Shown one piece after another: positions 14,832-30,824 of a stretch of DNA of 64,000 nt (the stretch's first letter is position 1; every line of letters starts with the position of its first letter). The notes beneath the pieces are model-generated. The model made no database searches and was not told the DNA's origin. It worked only from the letters and a program-made list of their open reading frames with translations. The stretch comes from Hellea sp. (GTDB taxonomy: Bacteria > Pseudomonadota > Alphaproteobacteria > Caulobacterales > Maricaulaceae), in assembly GCA_020631215.1 (NCBI GenBank), contig JAHDHS010000004.1:59166-123165 (forward strand), in the 5' to 3' direction. The translations under genes and the position numbers were made by a program.

Positions 14832-15477
14832 GGAGCTTTAAATGCGCGTAGCGGGAGCCGCCATCGCGGCGCTCCCCGTCTTGCGGGGCAGCCTGCAAAG
14901 CATCATCACCCAGCAAAAATGGAAAGCCGCGAAAGTTAGCTGTGTTGGAAAATTGATCGCGGCAGGCCGCAAAGCTGCGCGGGCAAATCGTGCCTTCGGG
15001 ATAAAGGCCCGCATCGACGCCGCAGCGGGCATCGCCGAAACTCGCGTCACAGATCTTGCCAAAGACACGGCCCGTGCCGCGTTCCAGCAAGGTTGCATGG
15101 CCGAGCCATTCTGCCTGAAATCCATCGCCGCTGATCTTGACCCGCCCGATGCGCCCCGAAGAGGTTAATTTGTATTCAGACGGGTTCTGCCAATTGACGG
15201 TAAAGCGTTCCAATATGGCGTTATCCAACACGCCCTCTTTCACCGCCTCTTCGGTCAAATCCGGCAGGTCAAAAACCGTCTCAATCTCTCCGCCGTCGGC
15301 GGCGAAATTAATTCGGTGATCGCGGTCAGTTTCATTGAGGCTTTGGCTGGGGTGATAGGTCGTACCGTCCAGTTCGAAGCTTTGGTCATGATCGGTCAGG
15401 CCACGTACCGAACCGTCCTTTAGGCGCAAACGCCAAGCAGAGCAGAGCGTCGTCGCAATGCCGGAAAACTCAGACAT
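14821..15477 (-). CDS. GTA DUF2163 tail/baseplate protein (gp13-like)
   Basis: 'TTLCSAWRLRLKDGSVRGLTDHDQSFELDGTTYHPS' is typical of DUF2163; canonical GTA gene order. Confidence 0.88.
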   Translation of the reverse strand: MSEFSGIATTLCSAWRLRLKDGSVRGLTDHDQSFELDGTTYHPSQSLNETDRDHRINFAADGGEIETVFDLPDLTEEAVKEGVLDNAILERFTVNWQNPSEYKLTSSGRIGRVKISGDGFQAEWLGHATLLERGTGRVFGKICDASFGDARCGVDAGLYPEGTICPRSFAACRDQFSNTANFRGFPFLLGDDALQAAPQDGERRDGGSRYAHLKLHAQ

Positions 15478-16108
15478 GATCCAGCACCTCGATCAGAGGC
15501 ACATCAGTGATCTGCACAGACTGAAAATCATCCAGAGTGATGTCCAGCCTATCCGTGTCAAAGCGCACCGGCACGTCAAATTCAAATCCGGCAGTCACGA
15601 CCGCACCGGAAGGTGACGGGGAATTAAATATGATCTTTCCGGTCAACGGATCGACACTATAGTTCGAAGTGTCAACAGCCACCCCGTCCAGCGCTAGTAG
15701 AAGCGTGTCAGTCACGGGTTTGGTAATACGGCGGTGATAGTCTCCCGCGCTATCGGCATAGGTTTTGATCAGAGCAAACTCTGTTTGTTGGCCATCGCCT
15801 GTACCAATGATTTGATCCGTGGCTGTGATCTCTTTGTCCGGCATAGCGGTCGTGAAATCCAGCCTGTCCCGAAATCGAAAACTATAAAGCCACCCGCGAC
15901 GCGCTTCGAAAAATGACAATATTTCAATAGCTTGTTGATATGTCTTTATACCTAAGGACGCCTGATAGCGCCTGCGGGAGTTATAATGGCGGCTATTGCG
16001 CCGCTCCGCCCCGCTGCCGAGCTGTGTGATCTCTGTTTGCCGCTCCGGCCCGCCGCTCGCACCAAAGGCCAGATGCCATGGGAAGCTGACATCGTGAAAG
16101 TCTGTCAC
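15470..16108 (-). CDS. GTA DUF2460 tail protein (gp12-like)
   Basis: 'FHDVSFPWHLAFGASGGPERQTEITQLGSGAERRNSRHYNSRRRYQASLGIKT'; canonical order. Confidence 0.88.
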   Translation of the reverse strand: MTDFHDVSFPWHLAFGASGGPERQTEITQLGSGAERRNSRHYNSRRRYQASLGIKTYQQAIEILSFFEARRGWLYSFRFRDRLDFTTAMPDKEITATDQIIGTGDGQQTEFALIKTYADSAGDYHRRITKPVTDTLLLALDGVAVDTSNYSVDPLTGKIIFNSPSPSGAVVTAGFEFDVPVRFDTDRLDITLDDFQSVQITDVPLIEVLDHV

Positions 16109-16143
16109 GATTTCTCCTTTATAAATCTAATTATTTATTTCGC

Positions 16144-16554
16144 TTAAGCGCGGCCCTGTCCGCGCGCCACGGCCTGCGCCAGACGCGCGGCGATCTGCCC
16201 TTCGGACTGTTTAATATCCGCAGATGCGCCGCCCCCATTGACCGTCATATTGACGATCACGGGCGGCTTTGCGCTCTGGCTACTTCCGCCCAAAAGCTTG
16301 CTGCCAAGATTACCAAAGGCAGCCTCCAGCGGGGCGGCGACCAGCTCATTAATCGCCAGCCGCGCTAAATCCCGCGACACAGATTCGGCGAGCCCGGAGA
16401 AGGAAAACTCCCCGCGTATCGCGGCCTGTTCTAATGATTTGGCTATGCGGTCTCCGGCGATTTCAAAGGCTCTCGCAACCTCATCCGCCGCCTCCATGGC
16501 TGGGCCTTTGACAAACTCATCCAGCGCCTTGGCCGCATGTTCTGTTTCATCCAT
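16144..16554 (-). CDS. GTA short tail tape-measure protein (gp11-like)
   Basis: Position between the tail chaperone and gp12; 'FSFSGLAESVSRDLARLAINELVAAPLEAAFGNLG'. Confidence 0.7.
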   Translation of the reverse strand: MDETEHAAKALDEFVKGPAMEAADEVARAFEIAGDRIAKSLEQAAIRGEFSFSGLAESVSRDLARLAINELVAAPLEAAFGNLGSKLLGGSSQSAKPPVIVNMTVNGGGASADIKQSEGQIAARLAQAVARGQGRA

Positions 16555-16747
16555 TTTCTTTTTCCTTATCCGGGTAACAGCGCATTAGTTCCGCCAGATT
16601 TTCAGCGGATAATCCGCCCTGAAATCGGGGCCGTGAGAGCGTCAGCCAATCGCGTAAACTCATGCGCCAGAACTCACTTGGCGCGATCCCAAAGCGCGTG
16701 ACCGCAAGGCGCATCCAATCGTCAAATGGCCACTCATCTTTGCGCAT
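16547..16747 (-). CDS. GTA phage tail assembly chaperone (TAC-like)
   Basis: 'DWMRLAVTRFGIAPSEFWRMSLRDWLTLSR'; overlapping position after gp10. Confidence 0.75.
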   Translation of the reverse strand: MRKDEWPFDDWMRLAVTRFGIAPSEFWRMSLRDWLTLSRPRFQGGLSAENLAELMRCYPDKEKENG

Positions 16748-17045
16748 TTAATTGCTCCTGTAAGACTTCGGACACGCGCATGATCGCCTCGCTGATTTCT
16801 GCATCCGGCAAACTCGCCGCCAGCCTGTCTGCGTCCTGATCCCTTGGTAAGTCAGGACGAAGCAGACAGGCCAGCAACGTGCGGGCCGAACCGGAGGTCA
16901 GATCACGCATTGCCTGCGCCATCCCGGCTGGCCCAAGGGCGCTCATACGCTGCGCCGCTTCAGCTAGCGCCCCCATGGTCAGACGCAGAGCGTAAACCCT
17001 GCCGTTAATTTCCAAATACCCGTCACCGGGCTGATATCCCGCCAT
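16734..17045 (-). CDS. GTA gp10-like protein (gene transfer agent family)
   Basis: 'GYLEINGRVYALRLTMGALAEAAQRMSALGPAGMAQAMRDLTSGSARTLLACLLRP'. Confidence 0.8.
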   Translation of the reverse strand: MAGYQPGDGYLEINGRVYALRLTMGALAEAAQRMSALGPAGMAQAMRDLTSGSARTLLACLLRPDLPRDQDADRLAASLPDAEISEAIMRVSEVLQEQLNAQR

Positions 17046-17456
17046 CTAATCCGCCGTGAAATCGGGCGCGCCGGCGCTGAGCAAAGTCAGTTCAAAATTT
17101 GCTTCGCCCTGATAAGTGCCGGAATAAGACAGGCCCGCAATCAGGAACGGCCCGCTGATCACGCCAAAATCGGGGATGATACATTGCAAATCCTGCGCGC
17201 TTTGATCGAAAAACGCCGCGCGGATAAGCGCATCGGACGCAGCGTCCCTAAAGACGCCCGCCCCGGAAATTTCGGCTGATTTGATACCTGCACCGGGCAA
17301 GAGTTCCTTCCAGCCGCCGGGGGAGCCTGTATCCGTGATGTCCACAGGCCGGGCATTCAGCCGGAAAGTCTTCGTCCGAAGCCCCGCCACCGTTATATAA
17401 GCGCCGGAGCCATCTTTAAGTTTCAGGAGCATGTCGCTCCCACGTTGGGCTGCCAT
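17046..17456 (-). CDS. Phage/GTA major tail protein (gp9-like, TP901-1 family)
   Basis: 'MAAQRGSDMLLKLKDGSGAYITVAGLRTKTFRLNARPVDITDTGSPGGWKELLPGAG'. Confidence 0.88.
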   Translation of the reverse strand: MAAQRGSDMLLKLKDGSGAYITVAGLRTKTFRLNARPVDITDTGSPGGWKELLPGAGIKSAEISGAGVFRDAASDALIRAAFFDQSAQDLQCIIPDFGVISGPFLIAGLSYSGTYQGEANFELTLLSAGAPDFTAD

Positions 17457-17464
17457 AAGGCCTC

Positions 17465-17887
17465 CTATTGTTCAGTATCGAGTGTGAAAGAGACGCGCAG
17501 CAGGCCATGCAGGGTCAGACCGTCAACGGCCCGCAACACATCGGAATAAATGACGGTCACGGCGGTCACATGCGCCTCCCCCGTCGCAGTCAGAGCACTC
17601 CGGCTTAGGGCCCGTTCAATCTGTTTCAAAATCCCAAAGACTTCCGACCGTCCGGCATAGCGTGACCAGACATGCAGCGTCATTTGATGCCGCGTGATCG
17701 CGCCGCCATCGGCGCTGTCATCGGTCGATCTCTGCGGGCCATAGGTCAGATAGGGAAAGACGGGGTCCTCCGGCGCAGCGTCATAAAGCCGGGGCGGCTG
17801 CCCCAATTCGCCCTGCACCCCCGGATCGGTCAGCAAGACCTCATGCACCGCTTTGGCCAGCGCCACGGCATCTGTCGTGACGCTCAT
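17465..17887 (-). CDS. GTA DUF3168 tail completion protein (gp8-like)
   Basis: 'LAKAVHEVLLTDPGVQGELGQPPRLYDAAPEDPVFPYLTYGPQRSTDDSADGG'. Confidence 0.85.
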   Translation of the reverse strand: MSVTTDAVALAKAVHEVLLTDPGVQGELGQPPRLYDAAPEDPVFPYLTYGPQRSTDDSADGGAITRHQMTLHVWSRYAGRSEVFGILKQIERALSRSALTATGEAHVTAVTVIYSDVLRAVDGLTLHGLLRVSFTLDTEQ

Positions 17888-18201
17888 TGCGCTTCCTCCT
17901 CACAGATCAGCTGCAATCGCTCACGCCGATCATCGGGATCAGAGGCCGCAATGACCCGCAATATCCGGCCCTGCCACATCAGGCGGGCGCGTTCGGGGAA
18001 ATTAGCCATGTAACGGATCGTGACCTTATAGGGCTGCAACACTGCCAGACGGCCATTCTCCTTGGCTTCGCTGAGATTATAAGGTTTCACACCCGCCCAG
18101 ATGACTTGGGACAGGCCCCATGTCCGGCTTGCCCCGCCCATATCATCCGGCGTCTCGCTGGGCGTATAAAGCCCGACGCGGCTGCGCATTTGCCGGATCA
18201 T
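17884..18201 (-). CDS. GTA/phage head-tail adaptor (gp7-like)
   Basis: 'GLYTPSETPDDMGGASRTWGLSQVIWAGVKPYN..' head-closure type; position. Confidence 0.82.
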   Translation of the reverse strand: MIRQMRSRVGLYTPSETPDDMGGASRTWGLSQVIWAGVKPYNLSEAKENGRLAVLQPYKVTIRYMANFPERARLMWQGRILRVIAASDPDDRRERLQLICEEEAQ

Positions 18202-18755
18202 AGCCGCAGCCCCTGATAAGGCATCAGCAGCGCATCGACCATCAACGGCTGCGGGATATCCGCCTCACCGCGATATTCATAGCTATGCGCAATCAACAGC
18301 AAAAGCGCCTGCCGAATGGGCATGGGAATGTCGTCCGGCGTGGGTCCATATCCGGCGATGAAATCGACCTGAACCTCTTGCGCTTCTGAGTATGCGGCGC
18401 GCCAATCCTGCCCGGATGACAGGCGAATAGGGGCCGGGCGGGCTTTCAGATTAGCCGTAAAGTCAGACGGTTCCAGCGCCTGCGTTCCTTCATCTGTCAC
18501 AATGCGGATGGCTGTGATTTCAGACGCCGGAAAGCGCGAGAGATAAAGCACCTGACCATCCGGCACAGCGCGGCACATGCGCTGCGCGCGGGTGATCAGG
18601 CTTTGGCCCAAACGGGTTTCTATCTGTCCCTGCGCGGCGACAATCAGATCGCGAATTAAATCATCCTCATCCGGCCCGTCGACACGCAAGAACGTCTTGG
18701 CGCTGTCCAGCGTGACAGGAAGAGAAGGCGGCGGATTAATATCAAAAATATGCAT
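18198..18755 (-). CDS. GTA head-tail connector (gp6-like)
   Basis: 'SLPVTLDSAKTFLRVDGPDEDDLIRDLIVAAQGQIETRLGQSLITR'. Confidence 0.85.
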   Translation of the reverse strand: MHIFDINPPPSLPVTLDSAKTFLRVDGPDEDDLIRDLIVAAQGQIETRLGQSLITRAQRMCRAVPDGQVLYLSRFPASEITAIRIVTDEGTQALEPSDFTANLKARPAPIRLSSGQDWRAAYSEAQEVQVDFIAGYGPTPDDIPMPIRQALLLLIAHSYEYRGEADIPQPLMVDALLMPYQGLRL

Positions 18756-18781
18756 AATGGCCTTTCAAAATTTGCGCATAA

Positions 18782-18806
18782 GAAAAGGCCGCGAAAACGC
18801 GGCCTT
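18782..18806 (-). terminator. Intrinsic terminator-like hairpin between capsid and gp6 genes
   Basis: Minus strand AAGGCCGCG-TTTT-CGCGGCCTT followed by TTCT; 9-bp perfect stem. Confidence 0.6.
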
Positions 18807-18814
18807 GGGGGTGA

Positions 18815-18945
18815 GAGTTTCCTTCTCCCTTGAGGGAGAAGGTGTCACGAAGTGACGGATGAGGGTATGCTAAACTGGCTTGACTACACCCTCACCCACC
18901 GCTTCGCGGTCCCCCCTCTCCCTTAAGGGAGAGGGAAAATTCTTG
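18815..18945. repeat. Palindromic dispersed repeat, family A, copy 1 (divergent, lacks central core)
   Basis: 'ccttctcccttgagggagaaggtgtcacgaagtgacggatgaggg...ccctcacccaccgcttcgcggtcccccctctcccttaagggagaggg'. Confidence 0.8.
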
Positions 18946-18948
18946 GAT

Positions 18949-20175
18949 TTAAGTCGCGGTGCGCAGAACTTTGATGGCGTCGAAATCCTGTACGCCGCCG
19001 CCCACGCGTTTGGTCGTGTAGAACAGCACATAGGGCTTGGCAGAGAATGGGTCGCGCAAGACGCGCACGCCCTGACGGTCGACAATCAGATAGCCCCGGC
19101 GGAAATCCCCAAAGGCCACCGCCGCGCCTTCGCTGGCAATATCGGGCATATCCTCCATCTCGATCAGCGGATAGCCCAGCAGGCTGCTCGGCGCGCCGGC
19201 CTCACTGGCGGGTTGCCAGATATAATTACCGTCGGCGTCTTTGAACTTACGCACCTCATTGATGGTGCGTCGGTTCATGACAAAACTGCCATTCGCGCGG
19301 TAACGCGATTTGGGCGCATAGATCAGGTCAAGCAAATCATCGACCGGATTGGCCGGATCAAAGCCGCCCGCCGTGCCCGTATTGATCGCGCCGATTTCGC
19401 CCCAATCCTGCAGGTCATTATCGGCCAGCGTATAGGAGAGAAAGCCCTTGGGTTTGTTTACTCCGTCGCCGGAGACAAAGGCCGCTGTTTCCTGCGCGGC
19501 AAAAACGTCCCGAACCTCATCCGCCAGCCAGGCATCGACATCGGCCACGCCGTCATCCAGTAAAGCCTGGGTCGCGGCGGGCATGGCGTAAAGCTCGCCG
19601 ACCGGGAAATCCAGCAGCTGTAAATCCGGCGCATCGGTTTCCAGCCGCGCCTCGGTTTCGCCCGCCCAGCCAGAGGCCGCGCCGTCTGCGCTGACGGGTT
19701 TCTTGAACAGGCCAGTCCCGATATTGCGAAGGGTCGCCAGACGCCGCATGGGCGAGCTGTCCTTTAGCGCGCTGTCAATCGTGGACTGCGTTTCCACGGG
19801 CGCGATATAGCTGCCATCGCCATCGACCGAAGAGAGTGACTTGCCTTCCAGCGCCATCAGGTCGGCCGTATCTCCGCCGCGAATATAGCTGTCCCAGGCG
19901 GATTTGGCTTCGCTGTGACCGCCCGTTTCAAGGCCCGGCTGTGACAAGGACATTGACAGATTGTCGATTTTCTTCGTCTGCGCCTCCAGCGCCGCGTTTA
20001 GCCGCGCAACCTTGTCATCCAGCAGCGTATCGGCCGAGGATTTCTGCTCGATTTCGGCCAGACGGGCGTCATTGGCCTCTTTAAAGGCGGCAAATGTTGC
20101 AGCGAAATCGGCCTTTACCTCTTTCATATCCGGGCCTATTTTGGTTTCTAATTTGATGTCTTTACTCACGCGCAA
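18949..20175 (-). CDS. HK97-family major capsid protein (GTA gp5-like)
   Basis: N-terminal coiled-coil delta domain, 'SYIAPVETQSTIDSALKDSSPMRRLATLRNIGTG', 'WQPASEAGAPSSLLGYPLIEMEDMPDIA', 'FGDFRRGYLIVDRQGVRVLRDPFS'. Confidence 0.95.
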   Translation of the reverse strand: MRVSKDIKLETKIGPDMKEVKADFAATFAAFKEANDARLAEIEQKSSADTLLDDKVARLNAALEAQTKKIDNLSMSLSQPGLETGGHSEAKSAWDSYIRGGDTADLMALEGKSLSSVDGDGSYIAPVETQSTIDSALKDSSPMRRLATLRNIGTGLFKKPVSADGAASGWAGETEARLETDAPDLQLLDFPVGELYAMPAATQALLDDGVADVDAWLADEVRDVFAAQETAAFVSGDGVNKPKGFLSYTLADNDLQDWGEIGAINTGTAGGFDPANPVDDLLDLIYAPKSRYRANGSFVMNRRTINEVRKFKDADGNYIWQPASEAGAPSSLLGYPLIEMEDMPDIASEGAAVAFGDFRRGYLIVDRQGVRVLRDPFSAKPYVLFYTTKRVGGGVQDFDAIKVLRTAT

Positions 20176-20633
20176 TACTCCTTTGTGATGTCGTGATGAG
20201 TGGGTCTGTCACCGATTTGAGTGATCCGCGCAGAGCGCAGCATCGGGAAGGCGGTGACAGAGACCTCCCAAAGATCGAGTTCCAATAGATTGCGACCGCC
20301 CTTTGTTCGGCCGGAGCGCCGCACGCGGTAGCCAATGGACAGGCCGGACACTGCGCCAGAGCGCACCAAGCGCGCGGCGCGGTCCGCTTCGGGCGCGCCC
20401 GCTATAATCCGGCCTGAGACAAACAGCCCCGTGCGGTCTTCAAACAACCGATCCCAAACGCCGATGGGCGTGTCTGTCTGGTGGCTGAACAGCATGGGCA
20501 GCGTGCCGCCCGGGAGGGACAGCAGGCTGCCCGCAAAGGCCCCGCGCGAGACACTATCGCCGGATAAATCACGCTGTCCGAACAGGCTGGCATAGCCGCT
20601 GATCCGCAGATCAGCGGGGATAATTTCCGTCAT
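20166..20633 (-). CDS. HK97-family prohead protease (GTA gp4-like)
   Basis: 'ISGYASLFGQRDLSGDSVSRGAF', 'MLFSHQTDTPIGVWDRLFED', 'SGLSIGYRV'. Confidence 0.92.
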   Translation of the reverse strand: MTEIIPADLRISGYASLFGQRDLSGDSVSRGAFAGSLLSLPGGTLPMLFSHQTDTPIGVWDRLFEDRTGLFVSGRIIAGAPEADRAARLVRSGAVSGLSIGYRVRRSGRTKGGRNLLELDLWEVSVTAFPMLRSARITQIGDRPTHHDITKEYCA

Positions 20634-20648
20634 AATGATGTCCTGTGG

Positions 20649-20894
20649 TTAGCGGCGTTCGTCGAGCTTGCGCTCTATGCGGGTCAGGCTTTGCGACATA
20701 ACCGTTGTCTGGCCTTCGACGCGGGCCAGGCGCTGCGCGACGCCCGGCGCCATGGCCATTTGCGTCTCTAGCGCTTTCAGCCGCGCATCCGCCGCCCCCG
20801 CCCAGATCAGCGCGCCCGCCGTTTGCAGCATGACCGAAAACAACAGGCCGTAAGTCACCGTCCGGTCGAAATTATGTTTGCTCATATCACTCAT
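20649..20894 (-). CDS. Small GTA head-region protein between portal and protease
   Basis: Short ORF with one TM and a coiled coil (MSDMSKHNFDRTVTYG...RLARVEGQTTVMSQSLTRIERKLDERR). The track ORF extends to 20939; internal ATG preferred to limit overlap with the portal gene. Confidence 0.7.
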   Translation of the reverse strand: MSDMSKHNFDRTVTYGLLFSVMLQTAGALIWAGAADARLKALETQMAMAPGVAQRLARVEGQTTVMSQSLTRIERKLDERR

Positions 20895-22053
20895 GGCGAC
20901 CTCCTGTTTCCAGTCCCGCCAAGACGCGGCGCTCCGCATCCGTGATGAAACTGGCGGCGGAGAGTCGCGCCCAAAGCTGCGCGCGTTCCTCCGACAAGGC
21001 CGGTATATGCTCCAGATCCGGCGTCAGGGTCAGCGCGTCGCCGTAAAAGGGCCGCAGCCAGCCTTGCAGCCCGCGCGCGGTTTTACTGACCAGCGGAATA
21101 ATCGTCTGCCGCCAAAAGGCCTGATTAGCCTCATGATAATTGGCATAAGTATTATCCCCGGGCAGACCCAGCAACATGGGCGGCACCCCAAAGGCCAGAG
21201 CGATGTCGCGTGCGGCCTCCCGCCGTGTCTGGATGAAATCCATGTCAGAGGGCGACAGGCTCATGCTTTTCCAGTCCAGCCCGCCTTCCAGCACCATGGG
21301 CCGCCCGGCCCGCTTCGCGCCGGTAAAATTGGTCTCCAGTTCTGTTTTCAGACGATCAAACTGATCATCGGTCAGTTGATCCCCGGCCCGACCCTGATAG
21401 ATCAGCGCCCCGCTGGGCCGCGCGGAATTATCCAGCAGGCCCTTGGCCCATTCTCCGCCCTGATTGTGAATATCCACCGCCTGCGCCGCAGCCTGCATGG
21501 GGGGCTGTCCGAAACAATCATCCGCTGGATTAAATAGGCGTATATGAAAGATGGCGCAGCGATTTGTTGCCATGTCCCGCCGAAAGCTGCGCGTCCGCCC
21601 GCCGGTCTTATGCGCCCAGCCCATGGCGCGCCCGGCCTTATCGGTCAGCAGGCTCATCCGGTCGGGGCGCAGCGCGCGCAGCATGACAGGCCGCTCCCCG
21701 TCCAGCACGGCCTCCAGATAGGCATTCCCGCTTAGCTGTAGATAGCCGTAAAAGCTTTCCAACACTTCGGTCAGAGAGCCCTGGGTATGGCTGCGCCTCA
21801 TCATCTCGGCGGCCGGCCCTTCCGGCGCGGTGATAGTGACTGAGGCCGCCGCCTCTGAAATCATGCGGATGCAGCGATAAGCCACCGGATTGCGGCCATA
21901 GCCCTCCCGCGACAGGGCATTAAAATCAGATGGCGTCCAGCGCGCATCGCCCGTGAGCTGCAAGGCCGCCAGATGCTGGCCATATGGCGGCGGAGCTGAT
22001 TTCATGGCAGGCGGAGACGCCGCCTTGGAGGGGCGGGCAAAGGGGTTTTTCAT
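20887..22053 (-). CDS. Phage/GTA portal protein (gp3-like, HK97 family)
   Basis: 'NPVAYRCIRMISEAAASV', 'GNAYLEAVLDGERPVMLRALRPDRM', 'DIALAFGVPPMLLGLPGDNTYANYHEANQAFWRQTIIPL'. Confidence 0.95.
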   Translation of the reverse strand: MKNPFARPSKAASPPAMKSAPPPYGQHLAALQLTGDARWTPSDFNALSREGYGRNPVAYRCIRMISEAAASVTITAPEGPAAEMMRRSHTQGSLTEVLESFYGYLQLSGNAYLEAVLDGERPVMLRALRPDRMSLLTDKAGRAMGWAHKTGGRTRSFRRDMATNRCAIFHIRLFNPADDCFGQPPMQAAAQAVDIHNQGGEWAKGLLDNSARPSGALIYQGRAGDQLTDDQFDRLKTELETNFTGAKRAGRPMVLEGGLDWKSMSLSPSDMDFIQTRREAARDIALAFGVPPMLLGLPGDNTYANYHEANQAFWRQTIIPLVSKTARGLQGWLRPFYGDALTLTPDLEHIPALSEERAQLWARLSAASFITDAERRVLAGLETGGRHE

Positions 22054-22183
22054 AAGGGTTATCCTGTCACTGTCACGGCCCGAAATTTCAGGCCCAATTC
22101 CGACTATGACTGAGTTATAACCCGCTTCCCAAGAGTGAGGATTGAAACGGCGTTTTTTTTATAAGCCCTTGAAAGACTTAGGT

Positions 22184-22618
22184 TTACGCAACCTTAAACA
22201 GGGATCTAGATTGCTTGGTCTGTCCCAATAGCGCCAAAGTCAGGCGGTAATTGCTGCGCAAATCTTCGCGCATGGCCTCATCGCCCAGCATAGAGGCCAA
22301 TGTGATCGCGCCGCGATAGGCGTCTTTGGCTTTCTCGAGGGATTCCTTATCGCCTTGTTGCTTGCCCAGCATCAGCAGCGTATCGGCCATGGCTTGCTGA
22401 ATTTCTGCATGTTCGCGGGGGCAGCGTTCAAAAGAATAATAGGTACGGGCAGAGCGCAGCGCCTTGACCGCCTCACGCAGCGGCTCAAGCTCTCCGGTCT
22501 GGCGGGCGAGCGTGATCATCTGCACCGCCAAAGCGCGGTTCAGCTCGCCCAATTCCTCATTGGTCTCGGCGAGTTTTTGCGTCAGCTCGGCTTTTTTATG
22601 CTTGCGCGATTGGCGCAT
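22184..22618 (-). CDS. TPR-like helical protein inside the GTA cluster
   Basis: Helical repeats 'ALAVQMITLARQTGELEPLREAVKALRSARTYYSFERCPREHAEIQQAMADTLLMLGKQQGDKESLEKAKDAYRGAI'. Start at 22618 chosen for the GGGAGAGGG RBS upstream (track ORF starts 22657). Confidence 0.7.
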   Translation of the reverse strand: MRQSRKHKKAELTQKLAETNEELGELNRALAVQMITLARQTGELEPLREAVKALRSARTYYSFERCPREHAEIQQAMADTLLMLGKQQGDKESLEKAKDAYRGAITLASMLGDEAMREDLRSNYRLTLALLGQTKQSRSLFKVA

Positions 22619-22662
22619 AATAAACCCTCTCCCAGTTAAGCCATTATGATGAGTCATCTTGG

Positions 22663-22677
22663 TTAACCAGGTGTTAA
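22663..22677. promoter_or_regulatory. Perfect TTAA-N7-TTAA CtrA-type box, with a GANTC (GAGTC) nearby
   Basis: ttaaccaggtgttaa at 22663-22677, with gagtc at 22651-22655, upstream of the 22618 start. Confidence 0.6.
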
Positions 22678-22866
22678 ATTCAAGCAGATTGTGGCCGCAT
22701 TAGGGCGGGTGTGGGGGCGAAAGTGGAATACCCACGATGGAAGCGAGATACTCTTCATTCTTCCTGAAACGAGGCTTACGAACCCTTCCTTCCGTTCACC
22801 CCCTACCTTCACTCTTCGCTCACCCCCGCGCAGGCCAAGGATAAGGCGGAGACCGAATGATTCAGT

Positions 22867-23027
22867 ACTTCCCCCTCTCCCATAGGGAGAGGGTGCCCGA
22901 AGGGCGGGTGAGGGGATCTGATCCCGAGAGTCATTACTCCCTATAGAGGCTCGGAACCCCTCATCCGTCGCCCGCTCATCCCTGCGCAGGCAGGGACGCG
23001 ACACCTTCTCACTATGGGAGAAGGAAG
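22867..23027. repeat. Palindromic dispersed repeat, family A, copy 2
   Basis: 'ccctctcccatagggagaggg...gtgaggggatctgatcccgagagtcattactccctatagaggctcggaacccctcatccg...ccttctcactatgggagaagg'. Confidence 0.88.
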
Positions 23028-23039
23028 TATCACGCACCC

Positions 23040-24269
23040 TCACAATACCCTGATCCTTGGCATTGACCTTTGCCCGAGTAGGAGGTGGTGCACGGCCCAG
23101 ACCAGGGCGTCGGTGCGGTCGGGGCTGTGTTTTTGGGCGGGGGTTCCGAAGAGGGCCATTTCATCTTCCAGCGCATCAAAGCAGCCCGCATGTTTGACCC
23201 GGCCCTGTTCATAGAGCGCGGCGACGGGCATGGCACGGGCGGATTTGCTGCGGCTGGCATGGACGGTGCGCAGGGGGATATCCGGATCGATCTGGCCGAT
23301 GATAGCGCGGATCATCTCCCCGCCCTGATTGGTTTCCGCCAGCAGGCAATCTGCGTCCCATTTATAAAACAGATCAATCGCACGCCGCGCCCAGGCTTCG
23401 GGTGAGTAGCCCTGCACGCTGGCGTCCTGAAGGATATAGGCGCAAGCCTCTCTCCCCTGCCCGCTTTGCCCGGCCACAATCAGCCCGCAGCGATCTGACT
23501 TTGGGCCGGAGGTCGTGGGCGGATCAATCGAGATAATGATCTTTGACAGCGGCGGAGCCGTCTCCACCCGCGCGCGGTCAATTAGATCACGCGGCCAGAG
23601 CGCGCCTTCGAAATCTTCGATCAGCTCCCCGCCCAATTCCTGCCGCCCCAAAGCCGTGCCGCCATAAATATTTTTCACGGCCTGCATGAAAGCGGCGGAG
23701 AGATGCAAACTATTATCAGAGGTTTTAGCGTGAGTGACCACGGTGTTGGGCATTTCCATCAGGGCCCGCAAAGCCGGAATGGGGCGCGGCGTGGTGGTAA
23801 TGACCATGCGTGAGCCCTGCCCTAATCTCAGCGCCAATCTGAGATTGGACAGCGTATCGGCGGGATGCGCCCAAGCGCAAAATTCATCACACCAGGCGGC
23901 GTCAAATTGCGGCCCGCGCAGGCTGTCCGGGTCTTCGGCGGAGAAGATATGGCCGACCGCCCCGTTTGGCCATTTGACCATGCGGCGCGAAGGGAGGAAT
24001 TCCGGCCGCTCCGTCGGATAGCCTATGTGCAGTAACCCGCTCGCGCCTTCGAGCATTACCTCGCGCGCATCCTGCAAAGTCGGCGCGACCAGCGCAATGC
24101 GTTTGCATCCCGCATAGCGGACTTGCTCTCTAATCCATTCGGCCCCGCTGCGGGTCTTGCCACAGCCGCGCCCGCCCATAATCAGCCATGAGTGCCAATC
24201 AGGATGAGCCGTCTTCGGATCCCTCTGATCCGGACGCGACCATAGGCTCCAAGTGTGGAGCATCATCAT
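23040..24269 (-). CDS. GTA terminase large subunit (gp2-like)
   Basis: Walker A 'IMGGRGCGKTRSGAEW', 'SLRGPQFDAAWCDEFCAW', nuclease region 'IISIDPPTTSGPKSDRCGLIVAGQ', 'LLAETNQGG'. Start near MMMLHTWSLW; track ORF extends to 24401. Confidence 0.95.
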   Translation of the reverse strand: MMMLHTWSLWSRPDQRDPKTAHPDWHSWLIMGGRGCGKTRSGAEWIREQVRYAGCKRIALVAPTLQDAREVMLEGASGLLHIGYPTERPEFLPSRRMVKWPNGAVGHIFSAEDPDSLRGPQFDAAWCDEFCAWAHPADTLSNLRLALRLGQGSRMVITTTPRPIPALRALMEMPNTVVTHAKTSDNSLHLSAAFMQAVKNIYGGTALGRQELGGELIEDFEGALWPRDLIDRARVETAPPLSKIIISIDPPTTSGPKSDRCGLIVAGQSGQGREACAYILQDASVQGYSPEAWARRAIDLFYKWDADCLLAETNQGGEMIRAIIGQIDPDIPLRTVHASRSKSARAMPVAALYEQGRVKHAGCFDALEDEMALFGTPAQKHSPDRTDALVWAVHHLLLGQRSMPRIRVL

Positions 24270-24648
24270 TAAATCTTCGGACGGCCTCCTCGACAATAGC
24301 GTGGATTGGGTTTCGGGGGTCTCCGAGAGGAGGGAGCAAAGATTGAATGCGGGCAATAAATCTTTCACGATCTTCAAGAGACGGGGGTGGGTAATCAGCA
24401 TAAGGCGTGTAAAGGCTTTCTTTGATTTCGGCGTCGCGCTGCTCGGCGTCGCGTTTGTAATCTTCTATGGCTTTCAGGCAGGTCGAGATCGTCCGCATGA
24501 TCCGGTCAATCGTGGCGGGGTCGGTTTCATCTTCCAATTGCTTTTCCAGCACTTTGATGGATTTGCGGATCTTTTGGACACGCTTGGTCTCTGTCGTATA
24601 GCCCTCGCGCTGGAGCTTGGTCAGGCGTTTCTTAGGTTCATCTGTCAT
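24199..24648 (-). CDS. Candidate GTA small terminase (gp1-like)
   Basis: Immediately upstream of and overlapping the large terminase. 'MTDEPKKRLTKLQREGYTTETKRVQKIRKSIKVLEKQLEDETDPATIDRIMRTISTCLKAIEDYKRDAEQRD' basic/coiled-coil. ATG overlaps the stop of the upstream ORF (ATGA). Confidence 0.6.
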   Translation of the reverse strand: MTDEPKKRLTKLQREGYTTETKRVQKIRKSIKVLEKQLEDETDPATIDRIMRTISTCLKAIEDYKRDAEQRDAEIKESLYTPYADYPPPSLEDRERFIARIQSLLPPLGDPRNPIHAIVEEAVRRFNDDAPHLEPMVASGSEGSEDGSS

Positions 24649-25373
24649 ATTCCGGCCTCCGTGCCGTAAAGCTTGACCAGACGGCCCAGCCCGATTTTCA
24701 GGATTGTGATGCCGGAATTGCGCGCCCATCTTTCGGCGCGCTCGACCAGTTCCAGAGACTCGTCGCGGCAGCAGACGCAGATCACGCCCCGCTCTATGCC
24801 CGGCCCCATGGCCTCCCTCGCGGCCAGCAAGCGGGTTTTGGCCGTCATATGGGCGAGCATTTTACGTTCCTGTGCATCGACCCGCCGCCCGCCATCCACC
24901 ATGGGCGTGTCGTAATTCTGTGTGCTGACATACCCAGCCCCGGCCATGATGTAGTCGCGGGCCAAATGACGGCCGGCTTCGACCTCTGCCGCCGTCAGGA
25001 TAAATTCGCCATTGCGATCTTTACGCCGCGCCAGCCGCTCTAAGATCAGGCTGCGCCGATTGACCGAGGCTTTGCGGATCACCCCGCTGGGCACAAAGAC
25101 ATCGCGCTCTTCCGTCTCAGCCTGCGGGCCGCCGGGCCCGGACAGCCGCCGCACAACGCTCCCCCGAATGACATAGCCCTTTTTCGTCAGCTTGACCGCA
25201 TCTTCGCAAATTAAGCGCTCGACATCACTTTGCGTCACCCAGAACACATCTTTGCGGCGCCGCCGATTGCCATAGGGAAAGACCTGCACTTCGCTGGCCG
25301 TGCGGTTATGGTCAATAACACCCGCCACAGCCACGATACGGCGCACGAGTTTCATGTCGCCTTGCGCCAACAT
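24645..25373 (-). CDS. DUF6456-like HTH protein; candidate GafZ/GafA C-terminal-type GTA regulator
   Basis: C-terminal 'LTAAEVEAGRHLARDYIMAG...MLAHMTAKTRLLAAREAMGPGIERGVICVCCRDESLELVERAERWARNSGITILKIGLGRLVKLYG' follows the DUF6456 pattern as I recall it. Confidence 0.65.
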   Translation of the reverse strand: MLAQGDMKLVRRIVAVAGVIDHNRTASEVQVFPYGNRRRRKDVFWVTQSDVERLICEDAVKLTKKGYVIRGSVVRRLSGPGGPQAETEERDVFVPSGVIRKASVNRRSLILERLARRKDRNGEFILTAAEVEAGRHLARDYIMAGAGYVSTQNYDTPMVDGGRRVDAQERKMLAHMTAKTRLLAAREAMGPGIERGVICVCCRDESLELVERAERWARNSGITILKIGLGRLVKLYGTEAGI

Positions 25374-25709
25374 CTAGGCGGCCACCGGCATGGGTGCCTG
25401 ATGGAGAAAACTTTCCAGACGGGAAATTTTCACATCAAAGATCGGATCATCCCGATGTTCCTCCACAATCTTGCAGGCATGATAAATGGTTGAGCGGTCA
25501 CGGCGGAAAATTCCGGCGGTGCGCGATTGCGTCAGATGAAAAACCGTTATGGTCAAATACATGGCGACTTGCCGCGCCAGAACCATTTGCGGACTGCCCC
25601 GGCCCGGCTTGGTTAAATCCATATCCCGCACATGAAACTCCAGCGCCACCGCCGCCATGATCAGGCGCACACGCAGAATATCATCAGGGCTGTTTTTTTG
25701 TCGTCGCAT
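25374..25709 (-). CDS. Stand-alone DnaA domain-IV-like HTH protein; candidate GafY-type GTA activator
   Basis: 'VRDMDLTKPGRGSPQMVLARQVAMYLTITVFHLTQSRTAGIFRRDRSTIYHACKIVEEHRDDPIFDVKISRLE' matches the DnaA C-terminal HTH pattern ('R..VLARQ.AMYL', 'RDRSTI.HAC'). Confidence 0.8.
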   Translation of the reverse strand: MRRQKNSPDDILRVRLIMAAVALEFHVRDMDLTKPGRGSPQMVLARQVAMYLTITVFHLTQSRTAGIFRRDRSTIYHACKIVEEHRDDPIFDVKISRLESFLHQAPMPVAA

Positions 25710-25989: not shown

Positions 25990-26412
25990 CTACGGCTTGG
26001 TCACAGCCGAGTCGCTTTTCCACCAGTTGCTGCGCGATGGCCAACGCAGCGGCGCGTAGCCGGCCAGGACGAGCAGGCCGCTCATGATACCGAGATTTTT
26101 AAAGAAGTTCTGGGCTTCACCCGGGATGATCCAAAATGGATGGATCAAGACATTGACCAAGAGCACATAAATCACAAAGCCGTAAGCGGCGAGTTTGACA
26201 TAACGCCCGGTCATCAAGGCCGCAGCCCCTAACAGGCTGGAGATCCCCGCAAATATCAAAAGCGGATGCGCCAGCGGTATCCCCTGCGCCTGCATCAACT
26301 CCAATTGAGCGCCCGGCGCGATAAGCTTGCCGATCCCGGGCAAAAGAAAATAAACACCCAATAAAACCCGGCCGATTAAGACGCTAATGGATGACATATA
26401 ATAACTCCCCAC
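25990..26412 (-). CDS. DoxX-family membrane protein
   Basis: 'IGRVLLGVYFLLPGIGKLIAP', 'ISSLLGAAALMTGRYVKLAAYGFVIYVLLVNVLIHPFW'. Confidence 0.88.
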   Translation of the reverse strand: MGSYYMSSISVLIGRVLLGVYFLLPGIGKLIAPGAQLELMQAQGIPLAHPLLIFAGISSLLGAAALMTGRYVKLAAYGFVIYVLLVNVLIHPFWIIPGEAQNFFKNLGIMSGLLVLAGYAPLRWPSRSNWWKSDSAVTKP

Positions 26413-26489
26413 CCCGAAGGCCCCAAGACGAATGAGATGATATCATGCCCGAAAAGCACGCCGAGGTCGAGAGAGCCCTTAAGTAAATA

Positions 26490-26612
26490 CTTTTCCTGGG
26501 TGGGGTTTGCGGTTATTATGTCGGAGAGGTTGATGAGGTGATCATTGCCTAGGATAAGGTTTATATCGCGACCATTGTCAAACAGCAGCAAGCGGATCCA
26601 GAATTGAGCCAT
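26490..26612 (-). pseudogene. Displaced 3'-end fragment of the PAS gene at 30312..30824
   Basis: 'MAQFWIRLLLFDNGRDINLILGNDHLINLSDIITANPTQEK' versus 'MAQFWVRLPLSDNGRDINLILGYDHLIKLSDIKTANPMQEK'; clear nucleotide homology over about 120 bp, same strand, no upstream part. Confidence 0.8.
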
Positions 26613-27031
26613 TACCCGCGCAGTTCAAAATCAAGGGCTAAGATTTTCGCCAGATCAGCTGCCAAGAATACTGGCCTCACCCCTAGATAATACCGCGATT
26701 TATACCCATACCGGACGTTAGCGAAGTAGCGATAAATGCCCAAAATAGGACGTCGCAGAAATATGAACTCCCTCACTGCCCCCATGCAATGATTGAAACA
26801 CAACGCGCCTATAATCTTGTACTGTGGGAGAGTCATCACAAGCAGAAATGGGGCAAGCATATCAAGAGACGTGTCCTAAGTGGCGGGTGTATTGATTGAG
26901 ATAACGCGAGCAGCCGAGGGATTAGGCGTTGAGGATAATGGGTTCAAGATGCGTTGCTTGCTATTTTCAAAGAAAAAAGCTTTAATAACCCCTAATTAGT
27001 GACGTCTAACCAAGTGGTTGAGTTACATTAA

Positions 27032-27904
27032 TTGGCGGGTCTGATGGCTAAGACAAAAAATTTGGGGAAAGTTTTTCAATCCCCCTTTCGATACCCGGGC
27101 GGCAAAGGTTTCCTTTCAGAGTATCTAGAGAATGAGCTTCTCAAAATTGATGTAGATATACCTGACTATGCAGAACCATATGCTGGTGGAGCTGGGGCGG
27201 CCATAAAATTACTTTCAGCAGGTAAGGTTAGGCGCATTCGTATTAATGATGCTGACCAGAGGATATTTTCTGCGTGGTCAGCTATTCTGAACGACAACGA
27301 ACGTTTTATTCATTCCATCGACGAAGTTCGAGTGGATATTAAAAATTGGAACAAATACGCAGAAATTGTAAAAAATCCTGCATTAGCACAAGATCCTTTC
27401 CAGCTAGGATTTGCCACTTTCTTTTTGAATCGGACGAACCGCTCCGGCATTATCTTAAAGGCTGGCCCGATTGGCGGACATAAACAAGCAGGGGACTGGA
27501 AATTAGACGCTAGGTTTAATAAAGATAGTTTAATTAAGAGAATTAAATGGATTGGTGAAAAATCTGACCACATCACTTTAAGCAATCATGATGGCCTTGC
27601 ATACCTTAAGAGAGCGGGAAAAGCAGCGTATAGCAGAAAGACGCTTTTTTTTGTTGATCCGCCTTATGTCAAAGCGGGCGGTAGGCTCTATTTAAACCTG
27701 ATGACAGAGCGCAAACACAAACAACTGGGCGAATACCTAGAAGGTGGCCATATCCCTCATTGGGTGGTGACTTATGACCATTGTCCATTGATTGAAGACA
27801 TTTACTCTAGATCACACCAGTCTGACCTAACTGTTGTCTATTCTCTTCAAAAGAAAAGAAACCAAAGGGAGTTGCTTATAAAATCCCCTTCATTGGCCGC
27901 TTGA
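27032..27904 (+). CDS. D12-class N6-adenine DNA methyltransferase (Dam-like)
   Basis: Motif I 'FRYPGGKGFL', 'EPYAGGAGAAI', motif IV 'FFVDPPYVKAG', 'VVTYDHCPLI'. Confidence 0.92.
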   Translation: MAGLMAKTKNLGKVFQSPFRYPGGKGFLSEYLENELLKIDVDIPDYAEPYAGGAGAAIKLLSAGKVRRIRINDADQRIFSAWSAILNDNERFIHSIDEVRVDIKNWNKYAEIVKNPALAQDPFQLGFATFFLNRTNRSGIILKAGPIGGHKQAGDWKLDARFNKDSLIKRIKWIGEKSDHITLSNHDGLAYLKRAGKAAYSRKTLFFVDPPYVKAGGRLYLNLMTERKHKQLGEYLEGGHIPHWVVTYDHCPLIEDIYSRSHQSDLTVVYSLQKKRNQRELLIKSPSLAA

Positions 27905-27906
27905 CG

Positions 27907-28953
27907 TTATGAAAACCTCTGTATGTTTATACCTTGCTCCAAATGACGGTATGACGCGATAAATTCTTGCCCGATAATTTCAAAATTATCATTTGCTTCA
28001 ACAAGCCCTAGATACTCAAAGATGCGACCAAGGTGCATATACACGCAGTTTGCAGAACCACATTCGCTTTGATGCAAAGGGTTATTAACATGAGGTACAA
28101 TTAATATGCCGCTTTTCGCATACTCAATTTGCTCAAGAAAAAAATCATTGAAAAAATCAATGTCATCGCGGCGAACCACTTTTGATTTTAAATCTTTTTT
28201 TTGAATAGTCGCTTGGGTCAAATAAAGCTCTGAGTCCGCCTGAAAGTCGCCATCAGGCATAGTTATTGTAACCATATCAGTTCTACCGTCATTAGTTACG
28301 CGTTGATTTCGCCGCAGGTTGTCGTGAGCCTTTGGTCGACCGTGACCAATGCTGTCGCATACATCACCAAGAATTTCCAAATAGTCTTGCGCACTACGTG
28401 ACTTTGACGTCATCCAAGTTTTACCTTTATACCTGCCCGAAACCGCAAAGGCTGAAAGGTACTCAAAAACTTTCGTAAAAAGACTATGAAAAACTTTGCT
28501 TTCCTTCTCAACTTCAGCAACGGCGGAGTCATCAAATTGTAGATAGTTATTCACCGAGACGGACAGCATATATAATCTCAGCCAAATATAAGCTATCCCG
28601 ACGGGGCTAACATCATCCTTAAGGGTAATTACCTGAGAGTTTCGGCCTGAAACCGTGAAGGGGTAATGATCGTTTAAAATCGATGCAAACTCCTCCAACT
28701 CTAAAGCTACCTCACGCTCTACTAGAGCGCGGCCCTCTTGATAACAAGCTTCTGGCTCGGCAATGTAATAATCTGGACTATCCCATTCTGACCCGTTTTC
28801 TCTGACGTGCTCAATGAAAGAAGCTGAAAGGTTTTCCCTGTCGAATGGCAATTCAGGGATTCGGAATTCGCCTTTGAGAAAACATTGTATTTCTGCAATT
28901 ATGGATGCATCTTCAATATGTTTAACGGATGCTATGGAATAAAATTGGGCCAA
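27907..28953 (-). CDS. Uncharacterised protein, putative PD-(D/E)XK-like nuclease
   Basis: No recognised full-length family. 'NDGRTDMVTITMPDGDFQADSELYLTQATIQKKDLKSKV' resembles the D-G-x-x-D-x-V...P-D-G...L-x-Q-x-A/T...K pattern of restriction-endonuclease-like proteins. Confidence 0.45.
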   Translation of the reverse strand: MAQFYSIASVKHIEDASIIAEIQCFLKGEFRIPELPFDRENLSASFIEHVRENGSEWDSPDYYIAEPEACYQEGRALVEREVALELEEFASILNDHYPFTVSGRNSQVITLKDDVSPVGIAYIWLRLYMLSVSVNNYLQFDDSAVAEVEKESKVFHSLFTKVFEYLSAFAVSGRYKGKTWMTSKSRSAQDYLEILGDVCDSIGHGRPKAHDNLRRNQRVTNDGRTDMVTITMPDGDFQADSELYLTQATIQKKDLKSKVVRRDDIDFFNDFFLEQIEYAKSGILIVPHVNNPLHQSECGSANCVYMHLGRIFEYLGLVEANDNFEIIGQEFIASYRHLEQGINIQRFS

Positions 28954-28965
28954 TTCGTTCAGCCT

Positions 28966-30069
28966 CTAAGACAACAACTTTAATAAATTTTGTAATTTGG
29001 AAATATCATCCTTCAAACTGCTTCCGGCTTTATGCTTCTCTTCGATAGATAGTGTAGCTATAACATCTGAGGAGCTATCCCATACTTTTTTAACGCGACT
29101 TTCAAGAGCAAAAACAGAGACTAGCCAATCCTCGATGTCTATCCCTGCAATACGTTTTGCGTCATCAAAATCACCTGTTCTTTCAAGTCGGTATAAAGCA
29201 TCTGTCGAAGCTATTACTTTTTGTAGTGCCGGCCGATCTTGCCCTTGACGTTTGATGATTGAGGGGGTTGTCCCATCTGGGGAGCCAAACAGCCAAGTCA
29301 TCAAATGCCCAAGTTTTTTGAAATGGGTTTCTGGAATGGGGTCATCCTGAATTTGTTCAGCCTTCAAAGCACTTGTTCCTAAACCTATGTACTCCCTTGT
29401 TTCCGGATTACTTAAAATGGAATACAAATGCGAAAAGTCATTTTTCGTCTTTTCTAGAAAGTTATCTTGTAAAAGGCTCAAACGCATCGCCTGTTCGAGC
29501 ACTTTGTACGAAAATAGGTTTCGCGTAATTTGAGTTGGTTGATCGCCAATTTGTCGTGCAAGAATTTCGACACGTTCCTTATCAGAGAGCGCTGAATTTC
29601 TCCTCAACTTAGTAAGAAGTTTTAGTCCAAACCTAGCTTTCGCCAAAGGCTCCCAATTTCTTGAACCATTAACATGACGATAGCCAATGTATTCGTCAGC
29701 ATCATCACGAGTGCTAATTACCGTCACAGGTAGATGCGTCAACGAAGCTTGATGCTTCGCCGGAATAGTTGGTACAATAGTTTTAGAGAAGTCTCGAATT
29801 AGCTCAGGGTTCAACAGAGTTTTTACTGCTGCGAGCCTACGATTTCCTTCAACTACGACGTAGTTGGTCGTGCCTGGAACTTGATATGCGACTAAAGGCT
29901 CAAATGGTAAAAACCCATTTTCAACTATAGAGTTCCACAACTCTTTAAGGTCACTGTTGTCAAATAGGAATCTAAGAGCCTCTGACTGATTTGAGCTTTC
30001 AGATAATCCAAATCTTGGATTTTCTACATCTAGAAGAAGCTGCTCTGGCGATATGTTTTCTACTGCCAA
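28966..30069 (-). CDS. ParB/Srx-fold domain protein
   Basis: N-terminal 'ISPEQLLLDVENPRFG...ELWNSIVENGFLPFEPLVAYQV...YVVVEGNRRLAAVKTLLNP', the ParB/Srx EGNRR motif. Confidence 0.82.
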   Translation of the reverse strand: MAVENISPEQLLLDVENPRFGLSESSNQSEALRFLFDNSDLKELWNSIVENGFLPFEPLVAYQVPGTTNYVVVEGNRRLAAVKTLLNPELIRDFSKTIVPTIPAKHQASLTHLPVTVISTRDDADEYIGYRHVNGSRNWEPLAKARFGLKLLTKLRRNSALSDKERVEILARQIGDQPTQITRNLFSYKVLEQAMRLSLLQDNFLEKTKNDFSHLYSILSNPETREYIGLGTSALKAEQIQDDPIPETHFKKLGHLMTWLFGSPDGTTPSIIKRQGQDRPALQKVIASTDALYRLERTGDFDDAKRIAGIDIEDWLVSVFALESRVKKVWDSSSDVIATLSIEEKHKAGSSLKDDISKLQNLLKLLS

Positions 30070-30311
30070 GTGGCGCTCCTTTTTTGCGTCTGGGTATCAT
30101 ATATGATTGAAGCCATTTCGCAATGGCATTGATTACTTGAAAGTGTGAGCCGTTTTTGGGAAATGCCAGCGCCATTATACTGACTTCACTAGAAGTGATA
30201 AGCATTGCGTGGAATGGTCTAGAGTCAACTATTTTCTGTCCGCTCATGGGGATTTCGAGGCATCAATTTCAAGCCATCCTGATGTCCGCTATGCCCCCTA
30301 AGCTGACTCCC

Positions 30312-30824
30312 CTACGCAAACACCTTTTCCTGCATGGGGTTTGCGGTTTTTATGTCGGAGAGTTTGATGAGGTGGTCGTAGCCTAGGATGAGGTTGATGT
30401 CGCGGCCATTATCAGACAGCGGCAGGCGGACCCAAAACTGGGCCATATGCGACCCGTTGGGTGTGTTGGGTTTGGTGACGCCGACATAGGGCTTACGGGT
30501 TTCGATGATTTGATCCAGTACGCGGTGCCAATATTCGACGCGGCAGCCGATGGGCAACTCGTCCAGATGCATGCCTTGAATTTCCTGATGATAGAGATTC
30601 CAAAATCCGGTTCCGGCCAGGCGCACGCGGTAACGATGTCCGGTGGCGGAGGGACGGCGCTCGACCATGGTCGTCATCGGCAATTGCGCGGCGATGTCTT
30701 CGGGTAGGATATCATGACGGGAGGGCAGTTTATTCTCTCGGCAGCGAGAGCGCCAATAATCGTAAAAGGCCTGCTGCTCCGGCAGTATAATTTGATGACG
30801 TAATGCATTCCCTGACAACATCAT
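30312..30824 (-). CDS. PAS-domain protein (PAS_5-like)
   Basis: 'FYDYWRSRCRENKLPSRHDILPEDIAAQLPMTTMVERRPSATGHRYRVRLAGTGFWNLYHQEIQGMHLDEL'. Confidence 0.8.
   Translation of the reverse strand: MMLSGNALRHQIILPEQQAFYDYWRSRCRENKLPSRHDILPEDIAAQLPMTTMVERRPSATGHRYRVRLAGTGFWNLYHQEIQGMHLDELPIGCRVEYWHRVLDQIIETRKPYVGVTKPNTPNGSHMAQFWVRLPLSDNGRDINLILGYDHLIKLSDIKTANPMQEKVFA

Follow-up and report, generated by a model that had tools for sequence, protein, structure and literature searches.

Which activity could unite a plus-strand DNA methyltransferase gene with two minus-strand genes, one for a ParB-like protein and one belonging to no recognized family, in the genome of Hellea sp.? The three genes, referred to here as the trio, occupy positions 27032-30069 of the window, by which we mean the whole stretch of 64,000 nucleotides that was analysed (assembly GCA_020631215.1, contig JAHDHS010000004.1, positions 59,166 to 123,165 of the forward strand). 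An earlier note, made from the sequence letters, had proposed an undescribed restriction or defence module at this place. What it observed is confirmed and what it made of these observations is mostly upheld with corrections, so that the note is partly supported. We consider it probable that the trio is one copy of a widespread, mobile and unnamed restriction-modification (RM) cassette with a ParB-like recognition subunit.

The arrangement of the locus is as the earlier note had read it, with all three open reading frames (ORFs) where it had placed them: a Dam-like methyltransferase gene converges on a minus-strand operon of two genes. The ParB-like gene comes first in this operon and is followed, after a spacing of 12 bp, by the second gene, hereafter gene 2, whose stop codon lies 2 bp from that of the methyltransferase gene. 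This three-gene arrangement is not a product of chance and recurs in more than 150 loci. The ParB alignment led to 160 new loci, which were scored with a gene 2 profile (A3) derived from 8 other loci. Gene 2 was directly downstream and on the same strand in 151 of them (about 94%), namely in 73 of the 80 bacterial and 78 of the 80 viral loci. The set comprises the closest ParB relatives, which limits this frequency to their subfamily, and it includes some near-copies. The two genes usually overlap or are a few bases apart. Searches that started from gene 2 gave the same picture: the ParB gene was adjacent in 5/5 non-window matches of the class search and in 4/4 complete non-window matches of the phylum search. 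The gene 2 family itself is sparse: the class sample of 387 genomes and the phylum sample of 399 each contained 6 genomes with it, the window genome counted. Co-occurrence among homologues, which the earlier note had named as a check on its proposal, is thus conserved from both sides. Among phage and plasmid relatives of the ParB-like protein, most of those inspected have a gene for a protein of 300-370 amino acids (aa) directly downstream, and in P2-like phages a convergent methyltransferase gene as well.

The methyltransferase matches the PADLOC profile PD-Lambda-5_B, at full length over residues 15-288 (2e-93), phrog_56 (DNA methyltransferase; 7.5e-35) and Pfam MethyltransfD12 (E-value 9.9e-9), and the AEPYAGGAG and DPPY motifs can both be read in its translation. 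Across homologous loci, a methyltransferase gene touches 139 of 164 ParB-gene 2 pairs, in positions that are convergent downstream, same-strand downstream or same-strand upstream. The enzyme is of the D12 class in 69 cases, C5 in 46 and N4/N6 in 24. Inspection of the remaining pairs revealed at least 4 more with a methyltransferase nearby, such as L041, L082, L065 and L175. On a tree of 99 ParB-like proteins the methyltransferase class changes at least 10 times, with 6 of the changes forced by well-supported branches. Such changes under a constant ParB-gene 2 pair are as expected of a separable modification module.

For the ParB-like protein, the EGNRR motif that the earlier note had taken as a ParB/sulfiredoxin (Srx) signature was found at residues 74-78, and H132, G135, W139 and K144 are, like the motif itself, invariant in the 94 homologues compared. 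The protein matches Pfam ParB_N slightly under the Pfam cut-off (1.9e-5) and phrog_3694 over its full length (8.9e-65), and its N-terminal 150 residues match positions 1-161 of the 466 in PD-Lambda-5_A (3.9e-26). With an AlphaFold2 model (predicted local distance difference test (pLDDT) score of 92.9), Foldseek retrieved ParB with nucleotide, Noc, Spo0J, sulfiredoxin and the serine kinase SerK, all with a probability of 1.00, and the predicted fold is the ParB-type nucleotide-binding fold of ParABS partition systems. The partner expected of such systems is absent, as no parA gene adjoins the window ParB-like gene or occurs in the annotated homologous neighbourhoods inspected. The helices of the model and a conserved IGDxHxTVxRL pattern suggest a helix-turn-helix (HTH)-like segment in the helical region after residue 141. 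According to a 2025 survey, ParB-fold proteins outside parAB operons often have links to mobile elements, and CTP, ATP or GTP binding is seen in various members (PMC12704722).

Gene 2 had been described as lacking a recognized family, and indeed it has no family match in Pfam, NCBIfam or PADLOC and nothing convincing in PHROG. As a single query it recovered no relative from phages, plasmids, IMG/VR, GTDB genomes or 99 related genomes, an outcome due to low sequence similarity and not to a lack of relatives. The family was revealed only by a profile made from the positional neighbours of ParB homologues: the genes downstream of these homologues align to gene 2 at only 14-17% identity, yet they share its invariant positions. 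Sequence searches against the PDB were uninformative. An AlphaFold2 model built from 111 homologues (mean pLDDT 89.9) gave, near the top of a Foldseek search of the PDB, MspJI (probability 0.96-0.98), HindIII, the nicking enzyme Nt.BspD6I, AspBHI, Can2 and Ecl18kI, and the named top matches in BFVD, a library of viral predicted structures, include Mrr-like proteins and restriction endonucleases. Restriction endonucleases thus come first in two structure libraries, which agrees with the PD-(D/E)XK fold that the earlier note had suspected.

The putative active site needs one correction. The earlier note had read the catalytic motif as Y-L-x-Q-A-T, a few residues off, since Q247 is not conserved in the closest relatives and Q251 is invariant there. 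In the family as a whole the core is D-x20-Q-[CV]-x plus a lysine, which 20 members have at Q+2 (the Mrr-like QCK form) and 75 at Q+10/11. Among the 98 members with the core glutamine, exactly one of the two possible lysines is found in 95, both in 1 and neither in 2. The exchange amounts to only one or two events on the ParB tree, so that the argument lies in the retention of exactly one lysine per protein and not in the counts, and we do not read the Fisher p value of 1.4e-17 as a probability. In the clade of the window protein, which includes members from Sphingomonas, Rhizobium, Cucumibacter, Thalassococcus and others, E21, N221, D222, G223, D226, A248, Q251, K258, C298 and C303 are invariant. 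Gene 2 is accordingly predicted to encode a nuclease of the PD-(D/E)XK type; cutting by the window's clade, with its variant active site, is predicted but not assured.

The cassette is spread over many bacterial phyla, and is found on bacterial chromosomes and plasmids and in P2-like phages. The trio with a convergent methyltransferase gene is carried by the P2-like phages Wphi (gp98-gp96-mth) and 12474III and by Pseudomonas phage D14A, and the exact layout of the window, D12 methyltransferase included, was found in Vibrio campbellii (L004). Marinobacter phage AS1 is an exception among the ParB relatives, with a pair of the PD-λ-5 type. Wphi is a phage of Escherichia coli W, and 140 of 5,426 complete E. 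coli genomes contain the trio with a C5 methyltransferase, always on the chromosome (104 of the Wphi type and 36 of the 12474 type). There the genes are annotated as 'ParB N-terminal domain-containing protein, hypothetical protein, DNA cytosine methyltransferase', the hypothetical protein being gene 2. In E. coli JXZ9A32M (NZ_CP193883.1:4598550-4602911) an IS5 element interrupts a Wphi-type trio, a natural insertion mutant. Two loci (L068 and L085) have a second ParB-like gene and a D12 methyltransferase gene behind the ParB-gene 2 pair, that is, two related systems in tandem. In three loci of Actinomycetota (L021, L025 and L031) a protein of ~500 aa with a ParB-like start (LDPRNVRL) is encoded upstream of the pair, and no methyltransferase was recognized there.

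How new is this system? The suggestion that it was undescribed is supported for the whole and not for all of its parts. The three-part layout appears in no paper searched, and no description or test of it was found in the open-access literature, a search that did not cover most subscription papers or REBASE; gene 2 is also absent from PADLOC. Two components are catalogued, the methyltransferase over its full length as PD-Lambda-5_B and the ParB-like protein by the N-terminal third of PD-Lambda-5_A. By sequence, then, the trio is a relative of the known defence system PD-λ-5 and hence not wholly undescribed. PD-λ-5 has an experimentally established, broad phage defence, and its authors regarded it as a compacted, prophage form of RM plus abortive infection (RM+Abi) (Vassallo et al. 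2022, PMC9519451). The trio and PD-λ-5 have in common a D12 methyltransferase that falls in one PADLOC family, homologous N-terminal domains of the ParB type and carriage by prophages. PD-λ-5, however, consists of two proteins and lacks gene 2, and its A profiles mostly have 430-500 positions with a C-terminal half of their own, whereas the window locus combines a shorter ParB-like protein with a separate nuclease-fold gene. True PD-λ-5_A proteins match the profile over most of its length (L207, L208 and phage AS1). Judged on length and composition, with neither a full-length A protein nor a two-gene make-up, the trio is most readily classed as a sibling of PD-λ-5 and not as a member. The C-terminal part of three PD-λ-5_A proteins showed no similarity to gene 2 (hhalign probability 0.1), a comparison of low power with few sequences. 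Profile comparison, again of low power with few sequences on one side, gave no support for an equivalence of gene 2 with the C-terminal half of either PD-λ-5_A or PDC-M38A.

Other systems share single elements with the trio. The A protein of PDC-M38, a PADLOC candidate, has a homologous ParB-like region, but this region is fused to an AAA_15/AAA_21 (OLD-like) ATPase (L209) and no gene 2-like domain is present; a Pfam scan found no AAA match in the window ParB-like protein. The PDC-M38A loci (L209-L212) reuse the ParB front end with another effector. Type IV GmrSD enzymes also contain a ParB-type N-terminal domain in a restriction protein (PMC12373910), but theirs is fused in one protein to an HNH or DUF1524 nuclease, without a methyltransferase, and the EGNRR protein of the window has no DUF262, HNH or DUF1524 match in Pfam. 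Type II RM systems likewise have a separate methyltransferase and a PD-(D/E)XK-type nuclease side by side, the nuclease of the window being a predicted one with a variant active site, and the methyltransferase motifs expected of them are intact in the window (MethyltransfD12 with DPPY and AEPYAGGAG); the trio differs in the additional ParB-like nucleoside triphosphatase (NTPase) and DNA-binding subunit, tightly linked to the nuclease gene, and in the exchangeable methyltransferase class. The closest counterparts are the trios of Wphi, 12474III and D14A, which have the same gene order, a convergent methyltransferase gene and a gene 2 that is homologous by profile, and differ in having a C5 cytosine methyltransferase in place of D12 and the canonical glutamine in gene 2.

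In the mechanism that we infer from these predicted folds, which keeps the earlier note's proposed division into self-protection, effector and sensor or loading factor, the methyltransferase would mark recognition sites on host DNA, the role typical of its family, while the ParB-like protein would bind unmarked sites through its HTH region. By analogy with ParB, nucleotide-dependent clamping may keep the ParB-like protein on invading DNA or allow it to travel along it, and it would then bring in the gene 2 protein, which, judging from its fold, would cut the DNA and so provide defence against phages. A bolder proposal, which we regard as possible but would not favour, is that these loci form a distinct class of restriction, in which site recognition falls not to the nuclease but to a ParB-type, nucleotide-dependent DNA clamp. 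This clamp would detect unmethylated sites and bring in a separate PD-(D/E)XK nuclease, self-protection would come from methyltransferases that can be exchanged for one another (D12, N4/N6 or C5), and the same ParB-like front end would serve other effectors in PD-λ-5 and PDC-M38.

Several points count against an RM cassette. No activity is known for it. The Foldseek E-values of gene 2 are weak (best 4.3e-3 in the PDB and 1.5e-3 in BFVD) and the global template modelling (TM) scores are low, so that the fold call rests on the consistency of the matches together with the motif. All members of the window's clade have alanine (A248) at the canonical glutamine position of the family. A fusion of the ParB-like protein with gene 2, which would argue for a direct complex, was looked for among the loci and none was found. 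Around 12% of the pairs have no methyltransferase nearby, among them L003 and L005 on plasmids of Neorhizobium and Persicobacter, and also L078; some of these pairs are at contig ends. Moreover, if the methyltransferase class is swapped under a conserved pair, the restriction side must change its recognition too, which the RM reading leaves unexplained. The alanine in particular raises the alternative of a dead nuclease relative in the window's clade, with the local gene 2 copy acting as a DNA-binding or regulatory partner. We judge this unlikely: E21, D222, D226, Q251 and K258 are invariant, a glutamine three residues on and a migrated lysine could complete the site, and the clade retains the trio with an adjoining D12 methyltransferase. 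About equally unlikely is a trio that is simply a diverged PD-λ-5, with a ParB-like and D12 core, an abortive-type response and gene 2 merely accessory. The strong matches of the methyltransferase and of the ParB N-terminus to PD-Lambda-5_B and PD-Lambda-5_A would fit this, as would the RM+Abi description, but only the beginning of the A profile is matched where true members match mostly in full, and the ParB-like protein of the trio has a full-length family of its own (phrog_3694). Gene 2 is too constant a neighbour in the ParB-first loci to be optional, many trios carry C5 or N4/N6 methyltransferases in place of D12, and gene 2 lacks similarity to the C-terminal part of PD-λ-5_A, the last with the low power already mentioned.

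Two further alternatives concern the benefit rather than the parts. Known RM systems can act as addiction modules, and carriage by P2-like prophages, plasmids and a small island would suit a cassette that serves chiefly for stability, with post-segregational killing by the nuclease upon loss of methylation and defence as a by-product. This would need the same biochemistry as the RM cassette, differing only in the selective benefit, and it leaves the ParB-like subunit unexplained; we hold it to be slightly less probable still than the two preceding alternatives. We give least credence to counter-defence or self-marking, in which the methyltransferase would protect its phage or island against restriction by the host, and DNA maintenance or partition would be the task of the ParB-like pair. 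Mth of Wphi is annotated as a DNA cytosine methylase only, and fusions of ParB folds with methyltransferases in phages have been suggested to act in anti-defence (PMC12704722), but the lack of a neighbouring ParA noted above, the restriction-endonuclease-like fold of gene 2, for which partition has no need, and the presence of the cassette on bacterial chromosomes all argue against it.

If the RM reading is correct, an RM cassette absent, as a three-gene system, from every library searched would be present across many phyla and in P2-like phages, a nuclease family without a Pfam or NCBIfam name would gain a role, and ParB-fold proteins outside parAB operons, an open question of the 2025 survey (PMC12704722), would gain a working context. 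PD-λ-5 and PDC-M38 would then be siblings with a common ParB-like front end. As one version is carried by Wphi, this can be tested directly in laboratory strains.

Table 1. Coordinates in the window of the three genes, their conserved motifs and the partly duplicated gene at the border
Feature	Position	Strand	Remarks
D12-class (Dam-like) N6-adenine DNA methyltransferase, 290 aa	27032..27904	+	TTG start; in-frame ATG at 27044 likely alternative
Gene 2, predicted PD-(D/E)XK-type nuclease of an unnamed family, 348 aa	27907..28953	-	Relatives in phrog_3984 and phrog_14650, PHROGs of unknown function
Q251 to K258 of gene 2	28180..28203	-	Gln and migrated Lys that do not vary within the window's clade
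D222-G-x-x-D226 motif of gene 2, start of a core beta strand	28276..28290	-	Present in 111/111 (D226) and 110/111 (D222) family members; neither varies within the window's clade
ParB/Srx-fold protein, 367 aa	28966..30069	-	ParB-type N-terminal NTPase domain, then all-helical region with putative HTH-like segment (about 163-196)
EGNRR nucleotide-binding motif, residues 74-78	29836..29850	-	Invariant across 94 homologues
PAS_5 gene	30312..30824	-	Flanks the island, host gene outside the system; Pfam PAS_5 1e-12; kept in 16/18 genomes of the genus
PAS_5 gene, extra copy of its final 41 codons	26490..26612	-	Forms the left border of the insert; 83% identical at the aa level to the PAS gene of the window itself

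The mobility of the cassette can be seen at the locus itself, where it was inserted into the Hellea genome at a spot that is empty in close relatives. In the same genus (for example, L178, L184, L187, L189, L199 and L200) the PAS_5 gene is directly followed by a DnaA-C-like gene, whose counterpart in the window lies at 25374-25709. In the window these two genes are ~4.6 kb apart, with the trio, a second copy of the PAS 3' end and a DoxX gene between them, and the G+C content is ~42% in the trio segment against about 55-60% on both flanks. A 123-bp direct repeat (26490-26612 and 30324-30446, 85% identical) duplicates the 3' end of PAS_5 and brackets the trio, and the extra copy is nearer to the window's own PAS gene than to that of any relative. 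Position 26490, given in the earlier note as the start of the module, is therefore the beginning of this repeat and marks the island edge. The direct repeat suggests that the island entered at the PAS gene's 3' end, by recombination or insertion; no integrase gene was seen.

The interval between the PAS_5 and DnaA-C-like genes is a variable site, occupied by different genes in L193, L194, L196 and L197 of the same genus (in L193 by genes for two proteins of >1,000 aa). Two short ORFs at 26376-26860 appear to be non-coding or remnants and lie outside the system. The island stands at one end of a cluster of the gene-transfer-agent (GTA) type on the minus strand (12508-25709), with genes for a GTA_TIM protein, baseplate hub, DUF2460, connector, capsid, portal and terminase, and then DUF6456 and the DnaA-C-like protein. 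Part of this order, namely DnaA-C-like, DUF6456 and terminase, is retained in relatives of the genus.

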